This document shows positions 49,528 to 61,661 of a stretch of 64,000 nt of DNA, piece after piece. This DNA comes from Chlorobiaceae bacterium (GTDB lineage: Bacteria > Bacteroidota > Chlorobiia > Chlorobiales > Chlorobiaceae): assembly GCA_013334925.1 (NCBI GenBank), contig JAAXWP010000002.1, forward strand, positions 1-64,000. Direction: 5' to 3'. The notes under the pieces were generated by a model. That model saw only the letters and a list, made by a program, of their open reading frames with translations. It made no database searches and was not told where the DNA came from. Made by a program: the position numbers and the translations under genes. Positions within the stretch are counted from its first letter, which is position 1; the number at the start of each line of letters is the position of its first letter.

Positions 49528-50286
49528 TCAGGCAAGCACGATCGGCACGGCCAGACAGTAGCCTACCCCACGATACGTCTTGATGGGAAAACCGAAGCCG
49601 AACGACTCGGTTTTACGCCGCAAACGATAGATCAGTGACTCAAGCGCGCGATTGCCCTGTTCATTTGACTGATAGCCCAAAATTTTCAGGATATACTGAC
49701 GGGTGACGATTGCCGTACTCTGCAACACAAGGGAGAGCAGAAAATCGAACTCCTTGGCCGTCAGCGCAATGACATCACCATGTGGGGTCAGTAAACTCCA
49801 CTCGTTGCGCAGAAGTCGCCACGAACCGCTCTCATCGCCTGCCACAGGCTCCTGTGGAGTGGGTTGTTTAACCTGATGGGGTCTCGATGCCTCGATCCGA
49901 TCGAACATGTTGGCGATCAGCGCCGCCAACTCCCTGACATCGACCGGTTTGGCAAGAGACATGTCAGCGCCTGATTCATATCCGGCGAGTCGCTCCTCGA
50001 CGGTCGCTCCGGAGTGAAGCACGATAATCCAGGCATCGGTATTCTTTCTGACATATTCTGCCAGCACAAATCCGCTCTGGTCCGGCAGGCCGATATCGAT
50101 AATGGCAAGATCGCAGCGCTCAGCGGAAAACAGCATCTGATAAAAATCGGCTGCCGACCCGACTCCAGTCACCGTATACCCCTGAAGTGACAGATAGCTG
50201 ACCAGGTCGTCACGCAAATCCCGGTCACCGTCCACGACGATAACCCGTTTTTCCGAGGCCGTGGTTTGAGAAAAATGCCTGGTCAT
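49528..50286 (-). CDS. OmpR/PhoB-type response regulator
   Basis: A 252-residue two-domain regulator. The receiver at about residues 12-125 has VIVVDGDRDLRDD, phospho-acceptor Asp in LAIIDIGLPDQSG, and Lys in SLAKPVD. The winged-helix DNA-binding domain at about 155-250 has LTAKEFDFLLSLVLQSTAIV, LIYRLRRKTES and IKTYRGVGYCL. It is an orphan without an adjacent kinase. The three CqsS-like kinases begin 3.3 kb away on the other strand and two end in phosphotransfer domains, so it is a candidate partner; that is an inference. Confidence 0.92.
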   Translation of the reverse strand: MTRHFSQTTASEKRVIVVDGDRDLRDDLVSYLSLQGYTVTGVGSAADFYQMLFSAERCDLAIIDIGLPDQSGFVLAEYVRKNTDAWIIVLHSGATVEERLAGYESGADMSLAKPVDVRELAALIANMFDRIEASRPHQVKQPTPQEPVAGDESGSWRLLRNEWSLLTPHGDVIALTAKEFDFLLSLVLQSTAIVTRQYILKILGYQSNEQGNRALESLIYRLRRKTESFGFGFPIKTYRGVGYCLAVPIVLA

Positions 50287-51616: not shown

Positions 51617-52867
51617 TCAGATTTCCCGTGAGATGCCAACCTGGATGCTGCGTGCATTGAAGGTCGCCACGCCCGGATCACCATGTCCGCTGACCGTCCA
51701 ATCCTGACGCTGCCTGTAGTGTTCGTATTTCACATCCGCCTGCCAGCCTTTGCCCAGATCCTTGCTGATCTTCATGCCCAACGTGACCGCCCCGAATGCT
51801 CCGAGACGCTGGTCTTCCGAGTAGTATTCGGTCCCGGGAGGAACCGGTGTCGGATCGGACGGAGAGGCGGTGTTGGTTGCAATGTAAAAATCGGCTTCAG
51901 ACTGCGAATAGAGCCTCAGCAATGGCGTCAGCGTCCAGCCACGATGCAGCGGCTGCACATATTCGGCTTCAAGTGTATGAGCTCGAATGCCAAAGGTATC
52001 GGAATAGTAACGGTACGCCAGCCTGGCAGTGCCTTCAGTGCTGTCGAAATGATGATTCCACCTGGCCAGCAGGGTAAACATCTCTCGCTTTCCAGGTCTC
52101 ACGTCCGGATCCTTGTATGGGTCGGTATAGAATCCATGACCTTTTGAATACCCTGCATTGACCTGGACGATATCGTTTTTCGAAACCACCTGGGTCAGAC
52201 CGATCAGACCTGAAAAAACCTGTTTTTTCTCCATCACATCATGCCGTTTTGATGCTACGACATTGGGACGACCAAGATCGATGGAATCATTGTTGAACGC
52301 TACGCCGAGTGTGATGGTCGAATTTCTGTCTTCTGTCGACAAAGTGCCCTGAAGGGAACACCCCCTGGATATGTAATCCGATTCGCGTGAGTAGTTAAGA
52401 CCGCCGGTCAGGCTCCCCCGCTGAAAATATCTGGTAACTGCAAGATCACCGGCATGCCTCAACTCACCCGAAGCCCCTGAAGATGTATCGTGCTCACCCG
52501 AAGACGAAGCAAAACCTGAAGAATGGTAAGCCGGAGATGCCCCGGTAACCGAATCCTCGACAAAAGTGCCGCCAATCAGCCATTTACCGGCGACAGGCAC
52601 CTTGCCGCTGAACGTCAGTGCGTTGACGCCAATCCTGTCTCTGGACATGCCCTGTGTTATGTCGGTATCGCCGCTCTGGCTGTCCTGATAATTGAGATAT
52701 TTAACTGCAACGACAGCCTTTTCGGGAGGAGCATCCGCATACGCACCACTCAATGATGGAAGCAGCACGACCGCAGAAACGAATGCGGTGCTGTACAACG
52801 TCGATTTCGCTGTGGTCACGATATTCATCGCCGTCAGTGGTTTTCTGTGGTTCAATTGCATCCGCAT
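51617..52867 (-). CDS. DUF3570-family outer-membrane beta-barrel protein
   Basis: A 416-residue predicted barrel. A signal peptide (FVSAVVLLPSLSGAYA) is followed by VAVKYLNYQDSQSG, which is typical of DUF3570. Many alternating strands follow (SLTGGLNYSRESDYISRG; TARLAYRYYSDTFGIRAHTL), with a final strand region ending SIQVGISREI. Function is not established. Its 5' end overlaps the DUF4266 lipoprotein gene by 16 bp, so the two are coupled. The pair is known to occur together in other Gram-negative bacteria. Confidence 0.88.
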   Translation of the reverse strand: MRMQLNHRKPLTAMNIVTTAKSTLYSTAFVSAVVLLPSLSGAYADAPPEKAVVAVKYLNYQDSQSGDTDITQGMSRDRIGVNALTFSGKVPVAGKWLIGGTFVEDSVTGASPAYHSSGFASSSGEHDTSSGASGELRHAGDLAVTRYFQRGSLTGGLNYSRESDYISRGCSLQGTLSTEDRNSTITLGVAFNNDSIDLGRPNVVASKRHDVMEKKQVFSGLIGLTQVVSKNDIVQVNAGYSKGHGFYTDPYKDPDVRPGKREMFTLLARWNHHFDSTEGTARLAYRYYSDTFGIRAHTLEAEYVQPLHRGWTLTPLLRLYSQSEADFYIATNTASPSDPTPVPPGTEYYSEDQRLGAFGAVTLGMKISKDLGKGWQADVKYEHYRQRQDWTVSGHGDPGVATFNARSIQVGISREI

Positions 52868-53082
52868 CCTCCTCCGCCAACACCGGCACCACCAGAAGCC
52901 CCTTCCTTGCTGCTGTAGATATGCTCGGTATATCGGGTATCGAGCTGCTCGTAATCAAAGGTCATTTCCGGCCTGGCGAGATTCTGTTTTTCCCAGGGCT
53001 GAACGCTTGAACAGCCGGCAAGAGAAAATGAGGCCAACAGCAGAGCACGGCACAGCAGAAGTGGAATTGTGTTTTTATTCAT
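52852..53082 (-). CDS. DUF4266 lipoprotein with Gly/Cys tail
   Basis: A 76-residue lipoprotein. The lipobox SLAGC lies at about residue 24. SVQPWEKQNLARPEMTFDYE and HIYSSKEGASGG are DUF4266 marks. The C-terminus is GVGGGGCGCN. Two cysteines in a glycine run could bind metal or be modified; nothing proves this. It is translated just before and overlapping the DUF3570 barrel, so they probably act together in the outer membrane. Confidence 0.88.
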   Translation of the reverse strand: MNKNTIPLLLCRALLLASFSLAGCSSVQPWEKQNLARPEMTFDYEQLDTRYTEHIYSSKEGASGGAGVGGGGCGCN

Positions 53083-53590
53083 GGCATTGGCGTTAGTTCC
53101 TGGTGACCGCTTTTGGCCGAATCATCACTGCTGTTTCACAACATGATTCGTGCGAAAAATGTGATAGGCTCAGTCGGTTCCGACCCGGAAATCGCAGCCT
53201 GTCCGTCATGGAACGAACCTGCGGTAATCGGATGCCGTAACCGGTAATAAGAAACGATCAGGTGAAGCGAGCGGGCGGCGACTGCAGATTGCTATCGTCA
53301 CTACCAAAACAGCGAGAGTGGCGTAATCTTCCGGCAGATCGCCATGAATAGTTAAAGATTAAAAAAATAAAAAGATTGGCACAGCTTTACAATTGTTAAT
53401 TCCTCTTTTCAGAAAGAAGGTCTTCCGTATTTTCTGGCGTATGCCATGAAAAAAAATGACAGCAAACACATAGAACACCTGTATAATTGCCAATATATAG
53501 CTATATTAACACTATCTTGATGCCTGCATGACAGCCACGCATCGGACCGAACAGTATCAGATATCAGTAACCCAAGTGCATTAACCCCCT
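53083..53590. other. Intergenic region upstream of the first CqsS-like kinase
   Basis: No gene is supported. The segment 53360-53510 is AT-rich, with TATAAT at 53482-53487 and the 12-bp palindrome ATATAGCTATAT at 53495-53506; these could belong to the promoter of the kinase gene. Confidence 0.45.
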
Positions 53591-56113
53591 ATGCGCTCCC
53601 CTCGTCATTTCAGCAGTGCACTGACTCAGAGAGCCCGTACTGTTTTTGAAACTTTCGAATCGATCATGCCGCTGCTCGGCATTTTTTCGATCGTCTGGCA
53701 TGTTACTGCCTACATCTCCTGGGCCTACATATACCCCCAGCCTTATGAAAGCCTCCTGTTGCGGTCTGTCCATGCATTGCTGGTACTGCCACTGTTGTTT
53801 TATCCCTGGCTGAAACGGTACCTGTCGACCCTCTTTCCAGCCTATTATCTTTTTTTCACGCTTTTCGCCACATCGTTCTTCTTTTTTTTCATGGCCATGA
53901 AGAACGAATGGTCAACCGTATGGACGATATCGACATTCTGTACCGTCCCGGTGCTCATCATGATCGGCTGCGACCTGCTCTACATCGGATTGTTCATTCC
54001 CTCCGCTTATGCGCTGTCATATCTGACGGTGCTCTTCCTGGATGGAGATGTCAGATTCACCCATTTCCAGGGGGCATACTTTCCGATTGTCCTGTTCGCC
54101 GTCTCCGGCAGCCTCGTTGCCAATAGCTGGACACACTTCCGACATCGCACAAGGATCTCGCTTCTGCAGAATCTGAGCGGGTCGATAGCAAACGAAATGA
54201 AAACCCCTTTGCATGCCATTGGCATAGCGATCGAAGCGATCAAAGCGATGCTTCCTGAACGGCGGCATGAAGTAGAAAACGTCAGCATAACGATTCCGGA
54301 ATCCGCTCTGACAGGCATCAGAGACCTGATCGATCAGGAGGCGGAAACCATTCGCAGAAGCAACAAAATCATCGATTCAATCCTGAAAAGCCTCAATGGC
54401 AATGCCATCGACCAGCAACAGTTCAGACGTTGCTCTGTCGCAAAAGCTGTCAGCCAGGTCGTTGAAACTTTTGGATTTGAATCCCCGGAAGATCGTGCCA
54501 GGGTTCACCTCGACCTGTCAAAGGATTTCGATTATTTCGGTGACAGAGACCTTCTTGTGCATTGTCTGTTCAATCTGCTCAACAATGCGCTGTATTACAA
54601 AAACAGGCCCGGGTTCAGCATCGACATCTCCACCCAGGTCGATGATCAGGCGCAGCGTATCATCATAAGGGATAACGGTCCGGGGCTGACTTCAGACCAA
54701 CTGGAAAAAATATTCGAACCGTTCTACACAGTTGACAAACCTGAAGGAAACGGACTCGGGCTCGCTTTCTGCAGAAGAGTCACCGAATCCTTTGGTGGAA
54801 CCATTGTCTGCAGATCCATTCCGGGCAAATGGACTGAATTCGTCCTGGATCTGCCTAAATATGAATCGGCAAAAGTCGATCAGCTCAAGAAAGAGCAGCT
54901 CTCCAGGAAAAAGGTACTCATCGTTGATGATCAGGCAGCCAACCGAATCATGCTCGCCAGATATCTCTCGGATATGAACTGTCAGTACGATCAGGCGGTA
55001 AATGGTCAGGTCGCTCTTGAGATGGCAGCAAAAAAGCGATACGACCTCATCCTTATGGATATCGAAATGCCGGTGCTCAATGGTGACGAGGCGGTAAAAA
55101 AACTCAGAACCGGAGAGGGTATCGAGCCATCCATGGCACTCTATTACTGGGATATACCCATAATCGGCATAACCGCTCTTCCGGAAGCCGAAGCCAAAAG
55201 AAGAACTCATGAATCGGGCATGGACGCCTACGCGCTCAAACCAGTCGATAAAACACAGCTGAAAAGAATCATCGACAGCAGTTTTTTTCAGGAAGAAGAG
55301 GAACCGTTTCCCGGTCTCATGGGGGCGGCGATACTGCTCGTCGATGACAACCTCATGACACGCGAGTTCCTCAAGGCGCTGCTCGAACCACTTGGTGTCC
55401 GGGTCTATCAGGCCGAAAACGGCGCGATAGCCTTGGAACTTCTGCAGGAATTACCGGTTGACCTCGTCATCGTCGACCTTGAGATGCCGGTCATGGGAGG
55501 CCTGGAAATCGCGACAGCACTCAGAAATCATACAGATGAAAAGCTTCGTCATCTTCCGATAATCTCTCTCGGCAAGCAAACCGATCTCGATACCGCAGAA
55601 AAAACGAAACGATCAGGTATCGACCTACATCTCGGCAAACAGACCCGCAGAGGAGAGCTCTTCAAAGCCATTTCGGTACTTCTGGATCATAACAGGCCTC
55701 AGAAAACATTGCGGGAAGAGGGTACATCGATTCCAACCAATTCTCCGGATGAATACGAAGCCTTTTCCGTGCTGGACATGTCAGTCATTGAGACGCTTCA
55801 GCAACTTGGGGAACCAGACCTGTTAGAACAGCTTGTCGGACTCTTTATCAGCGATTCCAGCAAACTCATCGATGACCTTGAAGGGGCGATGCAGCGTCAG
55901 GACCTCGAAGTCACACAGCGGGCAAGCCATACGCTCAAGGGCTCTTCTGCCAGTATGGGTGCCGCCAGACTCCATGCCATCACGACCACAATGAACCATC
56001 AGCTGCGTGCTCAAGGCAATCTGGAGGAACTCTCCTGGATAGATCTGCTCAGGAACACGCTCGACATCACTGAAAAGGCCCTGAAAAATCTGTTACAGGT
56101 CAATCGGCAATAA
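53591..56113 (+). CDS. CqsS-like membrane hybrid sensor kinase 1 (phospho-acceptor His replaced by Asn), two receivers and Hpt
   Basis: An 840-residue inner-membrane protein resembling the Vibrio quorum-sensing receptor CqsS. Residues about 28-175 have six hydrophobic segments including YIYPQPYESLLLRSV and KNEWSTVWTIS (Trp111, Ser114). The dimerisation helix reads LSGSIANEMKTPLHAIG with Asn201 (codon AAC at 54191) where the paralogues have His. The ATPase domain is intact (FNLLNNALYYKN, IIRDNGPGL, GNGLGLAFCRRV, GKWTEFVLDLPKY). Then come receiver 1 (VLIVDDQAANRIM, LILMDIEMPVLNG), receiver 2 (ILLVDDNLMTREF, LVIVDLEMPVMGG; KQ instead of KP), and an Hpt domain with ASHTLKGSSASMG near residue 780. 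It may not autophosphorylate but could act in dimers, as a phosphatase, or as a relay. First of three tandem paralogues. Confidence 0.92.
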   Translation: MRSPRHFSSALTQRARTVFETFESIMPLLGIFSIVWHVTAYISWAYIYPQPYESLLLRSVHALLVLPLLFYPWLKRYLSTLFPAYYLFFTLFATSFFFFFMAMKNEWSTVWTISTFCTVPVLIMIGCDLLYIGLFIPSAYALSYLTVLFLDGDVRFTHFQGAYFPIVLFAVSGSLVANSWTHFRHRTRISLLQNLSGSIANEMKTPLHAIGIAIEAIKAMLPERRHEVENVSITIPESALTGIRDLIDQEAETIRRSNKIIDSILKSLNGNAIDQQQFRRCSVAKAVSQVVETFGFESPEDRARVHLDLSKDFDYFGDRDLLVHCLFNLLNNALYYKNRPGFSIDISTQVDDQAQRIIIRDNGPGLTSDQLEKIFEPFYTVDKPEGNGLGLAFCRRVTESFGGTIVCRSIPGKWTEFVLDLPKYESAKVDQLKKEQLSRKKVLIVDDQAANRIMLARYLSDMNCQYDQAVNGQVALEMAAKKRYDLILMDIEMPVLNGDEAVKKLRTGEGIEPSMALYYWDIPIIGITALPEAEAKRRTHESGMDAYALKPVDKTQLKRIIDSSFFQEEEEPFPGLMGAAILLVDDNLMTREFLKALLEPLGVRVYQAENGAIALELLQELPVDLVIVDLEMPVMGGLEIATALRNHTDEKLRHLPIISLGKQTDLDTAEKTKRSGIDLHLGKQTRRGELFKAISVLLDHNRPQKTLREEGTSIPTNSPDEYEAFSVLDMSVIETLQQLGEPDLLEQLVGLFISDSSKLIDDLEGAMQRQDLEVTQRASHTLKGSSASMGAARLHAITTTMNHQLRAQGNLEELSWIDLLRNTLDITEKALKNLLQVNRQ

Positions 56114-56257
56114 TGCATTGACCTCCCTCGGCGCTGAGGCGCCTCTTGCTCGAACGACCAGTTTCTTTCGCTCGATGGCGTTATCGACCATCGAAGCGGA
56201 CAAAGATTGCGCGACGCAATAAAACTTTGCGAACAGGATAGATCATCATTGAAAATC

Positions 56258-58387
56258 ATGGATACCATTATAAAACTGAATAAAATTTTCCTCAGGAGAG
56301 CCGGAGAGATCATCGATCAGACGGAGCATAAGATTCCGACATTAGGGTATTACATCATCGGCTGGTTTCTGGGTTTTGAACTGGTAATCATTCTTTTCAG
56401 GTCCAGTTATCATGATTTTTTCAGCCTGCGCATCGTTGAGATTATACTAGCCGTGCCGCTGGTCCTGTATAACCATCTGAATGGCACCTTGCGGAAGATT
56501 TTCCCGTATCACTACATCTTCTACATGCTCTGCTGCATCCCCGTTTTCCTGTTCTACAGCACCATAAATAACGACTGGGACCCCATCTGGAGCATGGCGA
56601 CTCTGGGAGGAATTATCCTGCTCGTCGTCATCATTTCCGACTGGCTGTTCATTTCCGTGTTCATCACGTTATCCTTTGGAATTGCCTACTTAACAACCAT
56701 TTACCAGACCGGCACAGTCAGCTTCGTTCATTTCGACCCTCTTTATCTTTCGATTTACATATTCACTTTAAGTGGCAGCATGCTGGTCACCCGCTGGAAA
56801 GAGGAACGAAACAACAACAAGATCTCGCTGATGAAAAGCCTCAGCGGAACGATCGCTCACGAGATGCGGACACCTTTGCATACGATCACGCTGGCTATCG
56901 ATTCCGTCAGCTGCATTCTGCCGGATAAACCGGACCATTCCGAAAATCAGCTCCAATCCGTCACCCTACCGGTAACAGAATTTGACCGTATCAGAAACAT
57001 CATTGACCAGAGTGGCGAGACCATCAAACGGAGCAACAAGATCATCGACTCGATTCTGGCGAGTCTTAACGGCAGCGAAGTCGATCGCCGGCACTTCAGG
57101 TTTCACCAGGCTTCTGCCGTCATCAGCGTGGCCGTTGACAACTACAGTTTCAATGATCTGAATGAAAAATCGCTCGTCCAGCTCGATCTTTCACAGGACT
57201 TTGAATTCCTTGGGGATCGGGAGCTGTTTTCACACATGCTCTTCAATCTGCTGAACAATGCCATCTACTATCGCCACAAACCTGGCTTCTCCATTAAAAT
57301 AAGCACCACTACCGGTGAGAATAGCAATCAGATCAGGATACGTGACACAGGTCCTGGCGTTCCGGCAAACAAACGTGAAGTCATATTCAACCAGTTCTAC
57401 ACCTATGGTAAAAGCGGTGGCAACGGACTGGGACTTGCGTTCTGCAGAAGAGTTGCAGAGTCTTTCGGAGGAACGATAACCTGCCTTTCAGTAACCGGCG
57501 AATGGACAGAATTCGTCATCGACCTCCCATCTGCCGAATCAAAAAATATCCTGCAGCTCAAGAATGAAATACTGACCGGCAGACAGATCCTGATTGTCGA
57601 TGACCAGGCCATCAACCGTCTGCTGCTTTCAAAATTCGTCAACGGAATGAACTGCAGAACGGATCAGGCCGAAAACGGCAAATCGGCTCTTGAAATGGCC
57701 GCAGCAAAAACCTACGACCTCATTCTCATGGATATCGAGATGCCGGTGCTCAACGGAGACGAGGCCGTAAACCGACTGAGGGAGGGAGCCGGAATTCCTT
57801 TGTACCTGAAGAATCATTACCGCGAGATCCCGATCATTGGTGTAACCGCATTACCAGCCCAGGATGCCCGGCAACGCTGCCTGTCATCGGGAATGGACGA
57901 CTACCTCCTGAAACCGATAAAGCAGGCTGACCTCAGAAAGGTTATCGATCGCTATTTCTTCTACGAGCGACCTGCAAAAGAGCGCGCGCCACTCCCGGGC
58001 GTTACCAAAGCGTCCATCCTGCTGGCTGATGACAACGTTGTCATCAGAGAGCTTCTCAAAGCTATGCTCGAGCCACAGGGCTACCAGATCTATCAGGCCG
58101 AACACGGTAAAATGGCTCTCGATCTGCTGAAAGATATGCCGATCGATCTGGTCATCATGGATCTTGAAATGCCAGTTCTTGATGGTTTGGATACAGCGGC
58201 AGAGATCAGAAACAATTCCGTTGAACGGCTTCGCAGCATACCGATCATCGCTCTCAGCGGTCATACCGATTGGGAAACGATAGCAAAAACACAGCAGGCG
58301 GGAATCGATCTGCATCTTGCCAAACCGGTGCAGAAGCACGAACTGCTCAGTGCCGTTGCAAAGCTCGTGTCACACGACTCCGTTTGA
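56258..58387 (+). CDS. CqsS-like membrane hybrid sensor kinase 2, two receivers, no Hpt
   Basis: A 709-residue paralogue of the gene at 53591. Six hydrophobic segments occupy residues about 28-175. The sensor position has NNDWDPIWSMAT, so Trp111 is kept but residue 114 is Ala, not Ser. The H-box LSGTIAHEMRTPLHTIT has His201. ATPase motifs FNLLNNAIYYRH, IRDTGPGVP and GNGLGLAFCRRV are intact. Two receivers follow: ILIVDDQAINRLL with MDIEMPVLNG, and ILLADDNVVIREL with MDLEMPVLDG and LAKPV. The protein stops after receiver 2 and has no Hpt, so its phosphate would have to pass to an Hpt in trans, perhaps those of kinases 1 or 3. ATG 56258 aligns all residue numbers with the paralogues; a TTG at 56207 is less likely. 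Confidence 0.93.
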   Translation: MDTIIKLNKIFLRRAGEIIDQTEHKIPTLGYYIIGWFLGFELVIILFRSSYHDFFSLRIVEIILAVPLVLYNHLNGTLRKIFPYHYIFYMLCCIPVFLFYSTINNDWDPIWSMATLGGIILLVVIISDWLFISVFITLSFGIAYLTTIYQTGTVSFVHFDPLYLSIYIFTLSGSMLVTRWKEERNNNKISLMKSLSGTIAHEMRTPLHTITLAIDSVSCILPDKPDHSENQLQSVTLPVTEFDRIRNIIDQSGETIKRSNKIIDSILASLNGSEVDRRHFRFHQASAVISVAVDNYSFNDLNEKSLVQLDLSQDFEFLGDRELFSHMLFNLLNNAIYYRHKPGFSIKISTTTGENSNQIRIRDTGPGVPANKREVIFNQFYTYGKSGGNGLGLAFCRRVAESFGGTITCLSVTGEWTEFVIDLPSAESKNILQLKNEILTGRQILIVDDQAINRLLLSKFVNGMNCRTDQAENGKSALEMAAAKTYDLILMDIEMPVLNGDEAVNRLREGAGIPLYLKNHYREIPIIGVTALPAQDARQRCLSSGMDDYLLKPIKQADLRKVIDRYFFYERPAKERAPLPGVTKASILLADDNVVIRELLKAMLEPQGYQIYQAEHGKMALDLLKDMPIDLVIMDLEMPVLDGLDTAAEIRNNSVERLRSIPIIALSGHTDWETIAKTQQAGIDLHLAKPVQKHELLSAVAKLVSHDSV

Positions 58388-58722
58388 AATAACATGAAAG
58401 GAATTCTGCCTGCAACATAGTCCCGAAGCACTTGCAACAGGCTCCGATTGCGCCGGTTTTCCATAGCAGATATTGAAAGCGAAAAATCGGCAAAAACACG
58501 CCGAACTGCTCCTCCGTTTTTCGCATGAAGATCAGGAACAGATGCCAGGCCGTTCTGACTTATCGCTCCGTCGATTACCTGTATCAATCACCCGGATCGC
58601 CATGTTTCCGCCAATGGCCTGAGGTTGTCTGAGAGGCATACTGAAGACCAGATTGAGCCATCACCAGGAATAAGGTCATGAAAAGCCATTGTGGCAGAAA
58701 AAAAGCGTCGTTCTGAAAGGGG

Positions 58723-58742
58723 GGCGGGTTTTGCAACCCGCC
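58723..58742. repeat. Hairpin GGCGGGTT-TTGC-AACCCGCC
   Basis: A perfect 8-bp stem just left of the miniature element. A related segment (GTCATTTTGAACGGAGGGCA and a GGCAGacatccCTGCC hairpin) lies at 33010-33045, shortly before miniature-element copy 2. Confidence 0.6.
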
Positions 58743-58749
58743 ATTGAAT

Positions 58750-58847
58750 GAGGCTGTCTCATAAGCAAATCCGAGGCAGTTTCATCCCTGGGAACGCCAA
58801 GCCCCGGCTACTCTTTGACCATCCGATCTGTCTTCTGAGACAACCTC
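58750..58847. mobile_element. Miniature inverted-repeat element, short form, with an extra end at 58866-58883
   Basis: The left end is GAGGCTGTCTCATAAGC; the right end is CTTCTGAGACAACCTC. Another right end, CTTCTGAGACAGCCTC, follows at 58868-58883. The interior differs from the 148-bp copies but its left part matches, inverted, the piece at 33284-33327. No coding capacity. Confidence 0.7.
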
Positions 58848-59132
58848 GTTATAGGTGCTCAGGCCGGCTTCTGAGACAGCCTCATCCGGCAGCTATTTCA
58901 TGCCGTTATGCGTTATTCAGAATGACAGATGCTCTGATGGTGTGTCTTTGACTCCTGTGGTTGCCGAAGTGACACAAAAGTTCACGAAACGAAAATGCGC
59001 TCTTGCTCCGACAGGAATTTATCCGGAAGAAAACGATCGCTTCGCCGACGATCCCAAACTTTTCTGTATTCTATTCTTATGTGTCAAACGTGAGCGCCTG
59101 GGCACAAACAACCAGCTGCAGTAATCAACCAC

Positions 59133-61661
59133 ATGAATGCGCGCAATAACATGCTGGTCAGCCTCCGTCAGCGGGCTGAAGCTGTTACCGATCATATGGC
59201 ACCCAATATACCAGCCCTCGGTGCCTTCATCATTTTCTGGCAGTTCGCCTGTATCCTGATCTGGATAAATCATGGGTTCGAAACCTATGAAAACCTGTTC
59301 ATGAGAAGTCTGCTGGCGATCGGAGCCCTGCCTCTGGCATTTCTGCGAAGAGTCCCGCCCTCTTTCAGAAAAATGTTCCCATGGTACTTCCTCGGGTTCA
59401 TTCTGTTCTTTGGCAATTACTTTACCTTTTTCATGACCATCAGGAGTGAATGGACGACTGACTGGTCGATGTCCACGCTGGTCACCGTCATGCTGATCAT
59501 CGTGATCACCTACGATTGGGTATTCATTGTTCCGCTGATGAGCCTGGCCTATCTGCTTGCCCACCTGAGCGTACTCATCCTGGATGGAGGCGTCCGGTAC
59601 ACACACCTCGACAAAGAGTTCCTGCCCTCCCTCGTTTTTGCCATATCCGGCACGCTGATTGTCACACGCTGGAAACAGACACGTCATGAAACCAGTATCT
59701 CGCTGATGAAGAGCCTGAGCAGCACCATCGCACATGAGATGCGAAGTCCTCTGAACTCCATCACCCTGGCCATCAACGCCGTCAGGACCATGCTCCCCGA
59801 AAGGCGAAACAATACCGGTAACGTGAGCGAAAGAGTGTCGATTCCCGATGTGACCCTGAACGGTATCAGGGATATCATTGATCGCAGCGCTGACACTATC
59901 CGAAGAAGCAACAAGATCATCGACTCCATTCTGGCGAGTATGAATGGAAGCGAACTCGACCGCAGCCACTTTAAGGTCTACGAAGCCGCAAACATCGTCA
60001 GGCTTACCGTAGCAAGCTACGCATTCACCAATCCTGAAGAGCAATCGCTCATCCATCTGCAGCTTTCCGATAACTTCGAATTTCTCGGGGACCGTGACCT
60101 TTTTTCCAATCTGTTGTTCAATCTGATCGACAACGCGCTTTACTATCAGTCGACCCGAGGATTCCGCATCGACATCATCACGGCAAAAAAGGAGAACAGC
60201 AACTGCATCATCATACGAGACAATGGACCCGGAGTCCCGGCTGACAAGCGCGAAGCTATCTTCGAGCAGTTCTGCACCTTTGGTAAAACTGGCGGCAATG
60301 GCCTCGGACTCTCCTTCTGCAGGAGAATCACCGACTCGTTCGGCGGCACGATCGTGTGCAACTCGGAGCCTGGAGCATGGACGGAGTTTGTCATCGAACT
60401 GCCCTCGACCGAATCGAAAGCCATGGATAACCTCAAACGGGAACTCCTGACTGACCGACAGGTGCTGATCGTCGACGATCAGGCCCCGAACCGTATTCTG
60501 CTTTCAAAATTCGTGAGTGACCTCAACTGCAAGGTGGACCTGGCCGAAAACGGAAAAATCGCTCTGGACATGGCCGCCACCAAATCTTACGACCTCATCC
60601 TCATGGATATCGAAATGCCGGTGCTCACGGGAGATGGTGCCGTACAACGCCTGAGGGATGGAGGGGATCTGCCCCCCGCGCTGCGAAGCCATTACCGTAA
60701 TATCCCCGTTATCGGAGTTACGGCGCTGCCCGAAAAAGAGGCCATTCAGCGTACCGTCAAGTCCGGCATGGACAGTTACCTGCTCAAGCCGGTCAGAAGC
60801 AACGTCATCCGGGAGCTCATCTATCACAGCTTCTTCAGCGAAATGAGTGAAAAAAAGCGGGCTCCGCAGGAAAACCTCGCCGGAGCATCGATACTTCTTG
60901 TCGACGATAACCTCATGACCCTGGAGTTTCTCAAACTGTTTCTCGAGCCTATCGGATCGCGGCTGCACCTGGCGGGAAACGGACGGGACGCTTTGGCGCT
61001 TCTGCAGGAGCAGTCGTTCGATCTGGTCATCATGGATCTGGAGATGCCGATCATGGGCGGAATCGAAACCGCAAAAGCCATCAGGTCCTCCGAAGCCTGC
61101 CGTATGGTACCGATCATCTCCCTGAGCGGCCACACCAGCAGACAAACCATCCTGGAAGCACGCCAGTCGGGCATCGACATTCATCTCGGCAAACCGATTC
61201 GGAGATATGAGCTCCTGGACGCCATTTCCACCCTGATCACCCGCAACGGCAAAGCGGAGCAGACGAACACACAGTACCAGACAAAAAAACCCTCATATAC
61301 CATCATGTCAAACGAAACCGAACCCCTCCTTGACGACTCGATCATAACCAGTCTCAAGGAACTTGGAGACCCCGAACTGTTCGCTCAGCTGGTCGGTATT
61401 TTCATGACGGACACCGAACAACTCATCAGGCAACTGGACGAAGCCCTGGGCAACCATGACCTTGAAACCGCATTGCGTGCCAGTCACACACTGAAAGGAT
61501 CGGCGGCAAACATCGGGGCAAACCTGATGCATCACACCTCAGCAGAAATCAACAACCGGCTTCGTACTGCCGGATTCCCTGCCGAAAACGACTGGATCGA
61601 ACAACTCGGAAAAATCCTGAAAATGACGGAACAGGCATTTTCAGAACATGAAAACCGGTAA
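59133..61661 (+). CDS. CqsS-like membrane hybrid sensor kinase 3, two receivers and Hpt
   Basis: An 842-residue third paralogue and apparently the complete one. The sensor region has NHGFETYENLFMRSL and RSEWTTDWSMST (Trp111, Ser114). H-box LSSTIAHEMRSPLNSIT keeps His201. ATPase motifs are FNLIDNALYYQS, IIRDNGPGVP and GNGLGLSFCRRI. Receiver 1 has VLIVDDQAPNRIL and MDIEMPVLTG; receiver 2 has ILLVDDNLMTLEF, MDLEMPIMGG and LGKPI. The Hpt domain near residue 785 has ASHTLKGSAANIG. It is separated from kinase 2 by 745 bp of repeats, so it probably has its own promoter. By likeness to CqsS it would bind a small lipophilic signal; no synthase gene is in the window. Confidence 0.94.
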   Translation: MNARNNMLVSLRQRAEAVTDHMAPNIPALGAFIIFWQFACILIWINHGFETYENLFMRSLLAIGALPLAFLRRVPPSFRKMFPWYFLGFILFFGNYFTFFMTIRSEWTTDWSMSTLVTVMLIIVITYDWVFIVPLMSLAYLLAHLSVLILDGGVRYTHLDKEFLPSLVFAISGTLIVTRWKQTRHETSISLMKSLSSTIAHEMRSPLNSITLAINAVRTMLPERRNNTGNVSERVSIPDVTLNGIRDIIDRSADTIRRSNKIIDSILASMNGSELDRSHFKVYEAANIVRLTVASYAFTNPEEQSLIHLQLSDNFEFLGDRDLFSNLLFNLIDNALYYQSTRGFRIDIITAKKENSNCIIIRDNGPGVPADKREAIFEQFCTFGKTGGNGLGLSFCRRITDSFGGTIVCNSEPGAWTEFVIELPSTESKAMDNLKRELLTDRQVLIVDDQAPNRILLSKFVSDLNCKVDLAENGKIALDMAATKSYDLILMDIEMPVLTGDGAVQRLRDGGDLPPALRSHYRNIPVIGVTALPEKEAIQRTVKSGMDSYLLKPVRSNVIRELIYHSFFSEMSEKKRAPQENLAGASILLVDDNLMTLEFLKLFLEPIGSRLHLAGNGRDALALLQEQSFDLVIMDLEMPIMGGIETAKAIRSSEACRMVPIISLSGHTSRQTILEARQSGIDIHLGKPIRRYELLDAISTLITRNGKAEQTNTQYQTKKPSYTIMSNETEPLLDDSIITSLKELGDPELFAQLVGIFMTDTEQLIRQLDEALGNHDLETALRASHTLKGSAANIGANLMHHTSAEINNRLRTAGFPAENDWIEQLGKILKMTEQAFSEHENR

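Follow-up and report, generated by a model that had tools for sequence, protein, structure and literature searches.

In receptors for alpha-hydroxyketone (AHK) autoinducers such as CqsS, LqsS and LqsT, a multi-pass membrane domain precedes the DHp and ATPase domains, and CqsS adds a receiver. CqsS is phosphorylated at His194, LqsS at His200 and LqsT at His204 (PMC3376566, PMC5289986), and cqsA/cqsS have been reported in green sulfur bacteria (PMC10158934, PMC5289986). Some hybrid kinases use the Hpt of another kinase, as in LadS/GacS and CblS/CblT (PMC4866733). Here we analysed a 64,000-nucleotide stretch of Chlorobiaceae DNA (the window) that carries three tandem hybrid kinases, K1 to K3. K1 resembles the AHK receptors in its membrane domain and the DHp and ATPase domains that follow, but has Asn in place of the phosphorylated histidine, and unlike CqsS, LqsS and LqsT it carries two receivers as well as an Hpt. 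Like LqsT of Legionella, K1-K3 are orphan paralogues that are not adjacent to a synthase. The features of the three kinases are as follows.

53591 to 56113, forward strand: K1 (kinase 1), 840 aa, with a hydrophobic multi-pass N-terminus, DHp, HATPase_c, REC1, REC2 and Hpt (ORF, Pfam, hydrophobic segments, family alignment)
54191 to 54193, forward strand: Asn201 (AAC), the DHp phospho-acceptor position of K1, His in every other relative covering the site (alignment)
54194 to 54205, forward strand: ExxT/N phosphatase motif E202-M-K-T205, intact (alignment; motif role PMC3510030, PMC7005713)
54539 to 54859, forward strand: HATPase_c domain of K1, with intact N, G1, F and G2 (GNGLGL) boxes (Pfam, alignment)
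54902 to 55285, forward strand: REC1 of K1, with DD446-447, Asp490, Thr528 and Lys550-Pro551 all present (alignment)
55319 to 55681, forward strand: REC2 of K1, with Asp585/586, Asp629 and Lys683 kept, and Ser/Thr661 changed to Gly, Gly662 to Lys and Pro684 to Gln (alignment)
55793 to 56095, forward strand: Hpt domain of K1, with acceptor His780 (55928-55930) intact in SHTLKGS (Pfam, alignment)
56207 to 58387, forward strand: K2 (kinase 2), likelier start ATG 56258, with the acceptor His and complete REC1 and REC2, Hpt absent (ORF, Pfam, alignment)
59133 to 61661, forward strand: K3 (kinase 3), with a complete H-D-D-H set and Ser at His+4 (HEMRS) (ORF, Pfam, alignment)

The first-pass annotation had read residue 201 of K1 as Asn (AAC, 54191-54193) and the equivalent residue of K2 and K3 as His, and we find the same: codon 201 lies in the context SGSIANEMKTPLHAI in K1, with SGTIAHEMRTPLHTI in K2 and SSTIAHEMRSPLNSI in K3 falling in the same alignment column, and the K1 DHp motif reads SIANEMKTPL. 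K1 is 47-49% identical to its two tandem paralogues. An AlphaFold model of K1 (6-row alignment, mean pLDDT 69) was set aside, as pLDDT fell below 50 at residues 98-211, including Asn201. Promoter and terminator scans returned chance-level signals only.

The family of these kinases is indicated by a paralogue elsewhere in the genome (L005), which shares 39% identity with K1 over residues 9-829, membrane domain included. Two proteins of this genome exceed the curated cut-off of NF005526, "alpha-hydroxyketone-type quorum-sensing autoinducer synthase", and one of them is divergent from L005.

Contig C37 of this genome (G000), 51729 to 54239, reverse strand: paralogue kinase L005, divergent from an AHK synthase about 330 bp away
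Contig C37, 54566 to 55750, forward strand: AHK autoinducer synthase L202 (NF005526), divergent from L005
Contig C67 of the same genome, 175 to 1365: AHK autoinducer synthase L203 (NF005526), its gene beginning at the contig edge

Because L005, a full-length homologue of K1, pairs with an AHK synthase in the same genome, K1-K3 classify by homology as orphan CqsS-type (AHK quorum-sensing) hybrid kinases, a placement absent from the first-pass annotation. K1 itself has the full-length homology; Asn201 stands in place of the acceptor His, and no synthase gene is adjacent. A search for AHK synthase matches on the contig of K1-K3 (C74) found none. The second synthase, L203, may pair with a kinase near the end of contig C62.

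How unusual is Asn201? The family set comprised 53 members, drawn from the genome of K1-K3 and from 85 further Chlorobiaceae genomes as a selected sample of best-scoring loci; one member is a C-terminal fragment and 52 span the phospho-acceptor site. Among these best-scoring loci of the 86 genomes the acceptor column holds His in 51/52 and Asn in K1 alone. When the DNA of the 86 genomes was searched for the pattern I-A-N-E-M-(K/R), K1 was the sole kinase match; the remaining four matches are chance occurrences in short frames without kinase sequence. The acceptor His is likewise present in 28 of the 30 best HATPase_c loci of this genome, the others being K1, which lacks it, and L171, whose open frame begins past the site. 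As judged from these alignments, Asn201 exceeds ordinary variation. Since HisKA domains without His make up 0.9% of the total (722/76,471; PMC12632262), K1 is rare but belongs to an already known class.

In a maximum-likelihood tree K1 is sister (support 100/99) to L012, the only kinase at the corresponding locus of a different species (G004), to which it is ~52% identical. L012 has the His, as do all three tandem copies at the locus in G007, the third of which is split across two contigs. The G004 kinase lies between FMN-reductase/response-regulator genes and GATase/photolyase genes, and the three G007 kinases lie between those same flanking genes, while in G005 and G017 no kinase separates the regulator genes from the GATase genes, which are directly adjacent. 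As the G007 copies group together in the tree, the arrays of G007 and of the K1-K3 genome may have expanded separately. Because its other relatives keep His, including L012 and the G007 tandem copies, the loss reads as derived and is placed by the tree on the K1 terminal branch; its age would lie anywhere along that branch, back to the split from the G004 relative.

We then compared the remaining signalling motifs, all of which (ATPase, receiver and Hpt) the first-pass annotation had described as intact. This stands for the ATPase boxes, where N, DNGPG and GNGLGL are all kept, for REC1 and for Hpt, but not for REC2 (Gly661, Lys662, Gln684). There LSG..KP has become LGK..KQ, with loss of the Ser/Thr switch, of the small residue that comes next and of the Pro that follows the catalytic Lys; Gly662 and Pro684 are invariant across the 35 other family members compared. 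Loss of Thr/Ser together with the small residue after it is a described trend of pseudo-receivers (PMC12632262). Several relatives combine an intact REC2 with a degenerate REC1, in which the phospho-Asp is replaced or the acidic pair or Lys is missing (L051, L023, L007, L017-L020, L025, L026 and L031). Pseudo-receivers, as recognised from such residues, thus recur among CqsS-type relatives. The REC2 Asp is retained wherever the domain is complete, and because it is kept family-wide while REC1 is degenerate in several members, we infer that REC2 is likely the usual relay receiver of the family. In a two-member clade that keeps His (L022 in G004, contig C25, and L027 in G007, contig C33), Ala replaces the conserved H-box Pro (HEMRNAL) and the G2 box contains Ile (GxGIGL). 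With H1 missing and D1 (490), D2 (629) and H2 (780) present, K1 does not hold all phospho-sites in one protein as an unorthodox tripartite kinase of the ArcB/TorS type does. It does have the features of a pseudo-histidine kinase: the acceptor His is gone and the DHp/ATPase fold motifs are kept.

Given the established chemistry of the missing His, K1 is probably inactive as a kinase. Without His201 it would not autophosphorylate and would therefore be unable to start a phosphorelay. It keeps a membrane sensor, the ATP-binding domain, the ExxT motif, receiver 1 and the Hpt His, and could act among its tandem paralogues by accepting phosphoryl groups. We give about an even chance to the reading that K1 is a kinase-dead orphan CqsS-type receptor which accepts phosphate through its Hpt or receiver 1 and acts as a bridge or a drain. 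As a bridge, K1 would take up phosphate on its Hpt from K2, a kinase with His and two receivers that lacks an Hpt, and hand it on to a response regulator. As a drain, receiver 1 or Hpt together with the phosphatase motif would withdraw phosphate from the pathway in amounts set by the sensor. ArcB shows Hpt-to-receiver back-transfer, and such transfer could be a further drain. Bridge and drain appear about equally likely, and we infer the partners of K1, the direction of phosphate flow and the ligand from sequence throughout.

The first-pass annotation had proposed a phosphatase, a heterodimer partner or a relay hub; each is possible, and the sequence does not choose among them. The relay hub gains strength because K2, unlike every other complete member of its clade, lacks an Hpt: it is the sole Hpt-less member of 41 rows once the visibly truncated L055, L057 and L032, which end before Hpt, are excluded. 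No Hpt remnant was found downstream of K2 (58388-59132). An intact Hpt (His780) beside an Hpt-less partner hybrid kinase (K2) is the combination expected of a bridging Hpt in the role of GacS or CblT. The phosphatase gains strength because the ExxT motif is kept and a published His-to-Ala mutant keeps phosphatase activity: HisKA phosphatase activity requires Thr/Asn at His+4 and can survive loss of the His, the half-life of CrdA~P being 2.6 min with CrdS H371A, 0.7 min with wild type and 53.5 min without enzyme (PMC3510030). K1 keeps the required residue as Thr205. K3 and the three G007 tandem kinases (L011, L021, L032) have Ser at His+4, not the Thr/Asn needed for the HisKA phosphatase activity of CrdS.

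Several points weigh against K1 as an acceptor. Because REC2, with its Asp kept family-wide, is damaged in K1, the usual route to its own Hpt may be impaired. K2 could rely on the complete K3, with no need of K1. The His is essential to some HisKA phosphatases, PleC H610A having lost activity (quoted in PMC3510030), and a nearby regulator that might provide the output also occurs at loci without these kinases.

49528 to 50286, reverse strand: OmpR/TorR-like response regulator, a candidate output only (same locus)

This regulator is conserved in the vicinity of the kinase locus and of a putative ABC-permease/ATPase/HlyD/TolC-like set of efflux genes. Within the genus, its orthologues are found together with these kinases (5/6 genomes versus 0/15; Fisher p 0.0003, the species not being independent). 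We considered it as the cognate output, but in G005 and G017 it stands beside the GATase gene without a kinase between. Because it persists at these kinase-free loci, its association with the kinases may be one of shared location only.

A more specific and distinctly tentative proposal is that tandem duplication left K1 and K2 as a complementary pair, K1 having lost His and the REC2 switch and K2 its Hpt. The two would then form an obligate split phosphorelay, sense AHKs separately and act as a coincidence or ratio detector in quorum sensing.

K1 might instead have no present role, having become redundant after tandem duplication and now losing function piecemeal, starting from His201 and the REC2 switch. 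The two separate phosphorelay sites hit (the DHp His and the REC2 switch residues) and the remaining tandem copies K2 and K3 would fit such early decay, as would nine changes at conserved columns, which place K1 among the higher counts (L023, L015 and L016 exceed it). Per-domain branch lengths, computed with the topology fixed, point the other way. The terminal branch of K1 measures 0.36 for DHp, 0.36 for CA, 0.27 for REC1, 0.46 for REC2 and 0.70 for Hpt, against 0.51, 0.36, 0.51, 0.50 and 0.65 for K3 and 0.52 (DHp) and 0.23 (CA) for K2, so that DHp, CA and REC2 of K1 are not above those of K3. Between K1 and its nearest homologue, from G004, dN is 0.36 and dS 1.96 (dN/dS ~0.18, with dS near saturation). 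On these figures the DHp and ATPase domains of K1 seem to evolve no faster than those of its siblings, and local relaxation and decay are not evident, although such averages are taken over the entire branch and would not reveal decay of recent onset. The 840-codon frame is uninterrupted, and ATPase boxes, REC1 and Hpt are intact. The earlier statement that the gene is not decaying thus survives in the form that it is not plainly decaying, and we regard early decay as unlikely.

K1 could also pair with K2 or K3 through its DHp domain, its ATPase phosphorylating the partner His in trans or K1 exerting allosteric control, as RetS acts on GacS and DivL on CckA. Its tandem paralogues at 47-49% identity offer putative partners, heterodimers and pseudokinases are known (PMC9491836, PMC4866733), and the intact ATP-binding boxes, superfluous in a protein that only donates an Hpt, favour this arrangement. 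It leaves the intact receiver 1 and Hpt of K1 unexplained, however, and we think it rather improbable. Finally, a base error or single-isolate mutation in a species that normally has CAC would take one base, and one strain was read, from a 101-contig draft, but the independent REC2 lesions (Gly661, Lys662, Gln684) fit a real loss of the normal relay, and we consider this very unlikely.

Returning to K1 as a phosphoryl acceptor, its pairing with K2 resembles LadS/GacS and CblS/CblT, in which an Hpt-less hybrid kinase works in a pathway with an Hpt-bearing one. GacS, however, has an H1 of its own and is active as a kinase (PMC4866733), whereas K1 lacks H1 and its phosphotransfer is putative. The locus presents a natural CqsS-type quorum receptor, predicted to be kinase-dead, that keeps its Hpt beside the Hpt-less K2 and the complete K3; of the related species, one carries a single kinase here and others carry none. 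Because the array can be set against these one-kinase and empty loci, it should be possible to trace, and to test in a small system, how a single receptor could have become a divided phosphorelay. The Rcs phosphorelay offers a further kinase-like protein, RcsD, which lacks the acceptor His, has a working Hpt and relays phosphate from the hybrid kinase RcsC; it is not known to be a CqsS-type receptor, and our comparison with K1 is by description. In DivL, Tyr replaces the His. DivL has been termed a pseudo-histidine kinase (PMC9430884), and K1 resembles it and the experimentally evolved ChrS in that the fold is kept and kinase function is lost (in K1, by prediction). Evolved ChrS differs from K1 in having lost its ATPase domain and not its His. 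Unlike both DivL and ChrS, K1 is a quorum-type hybrid kinase with an intact-looking Hpt.
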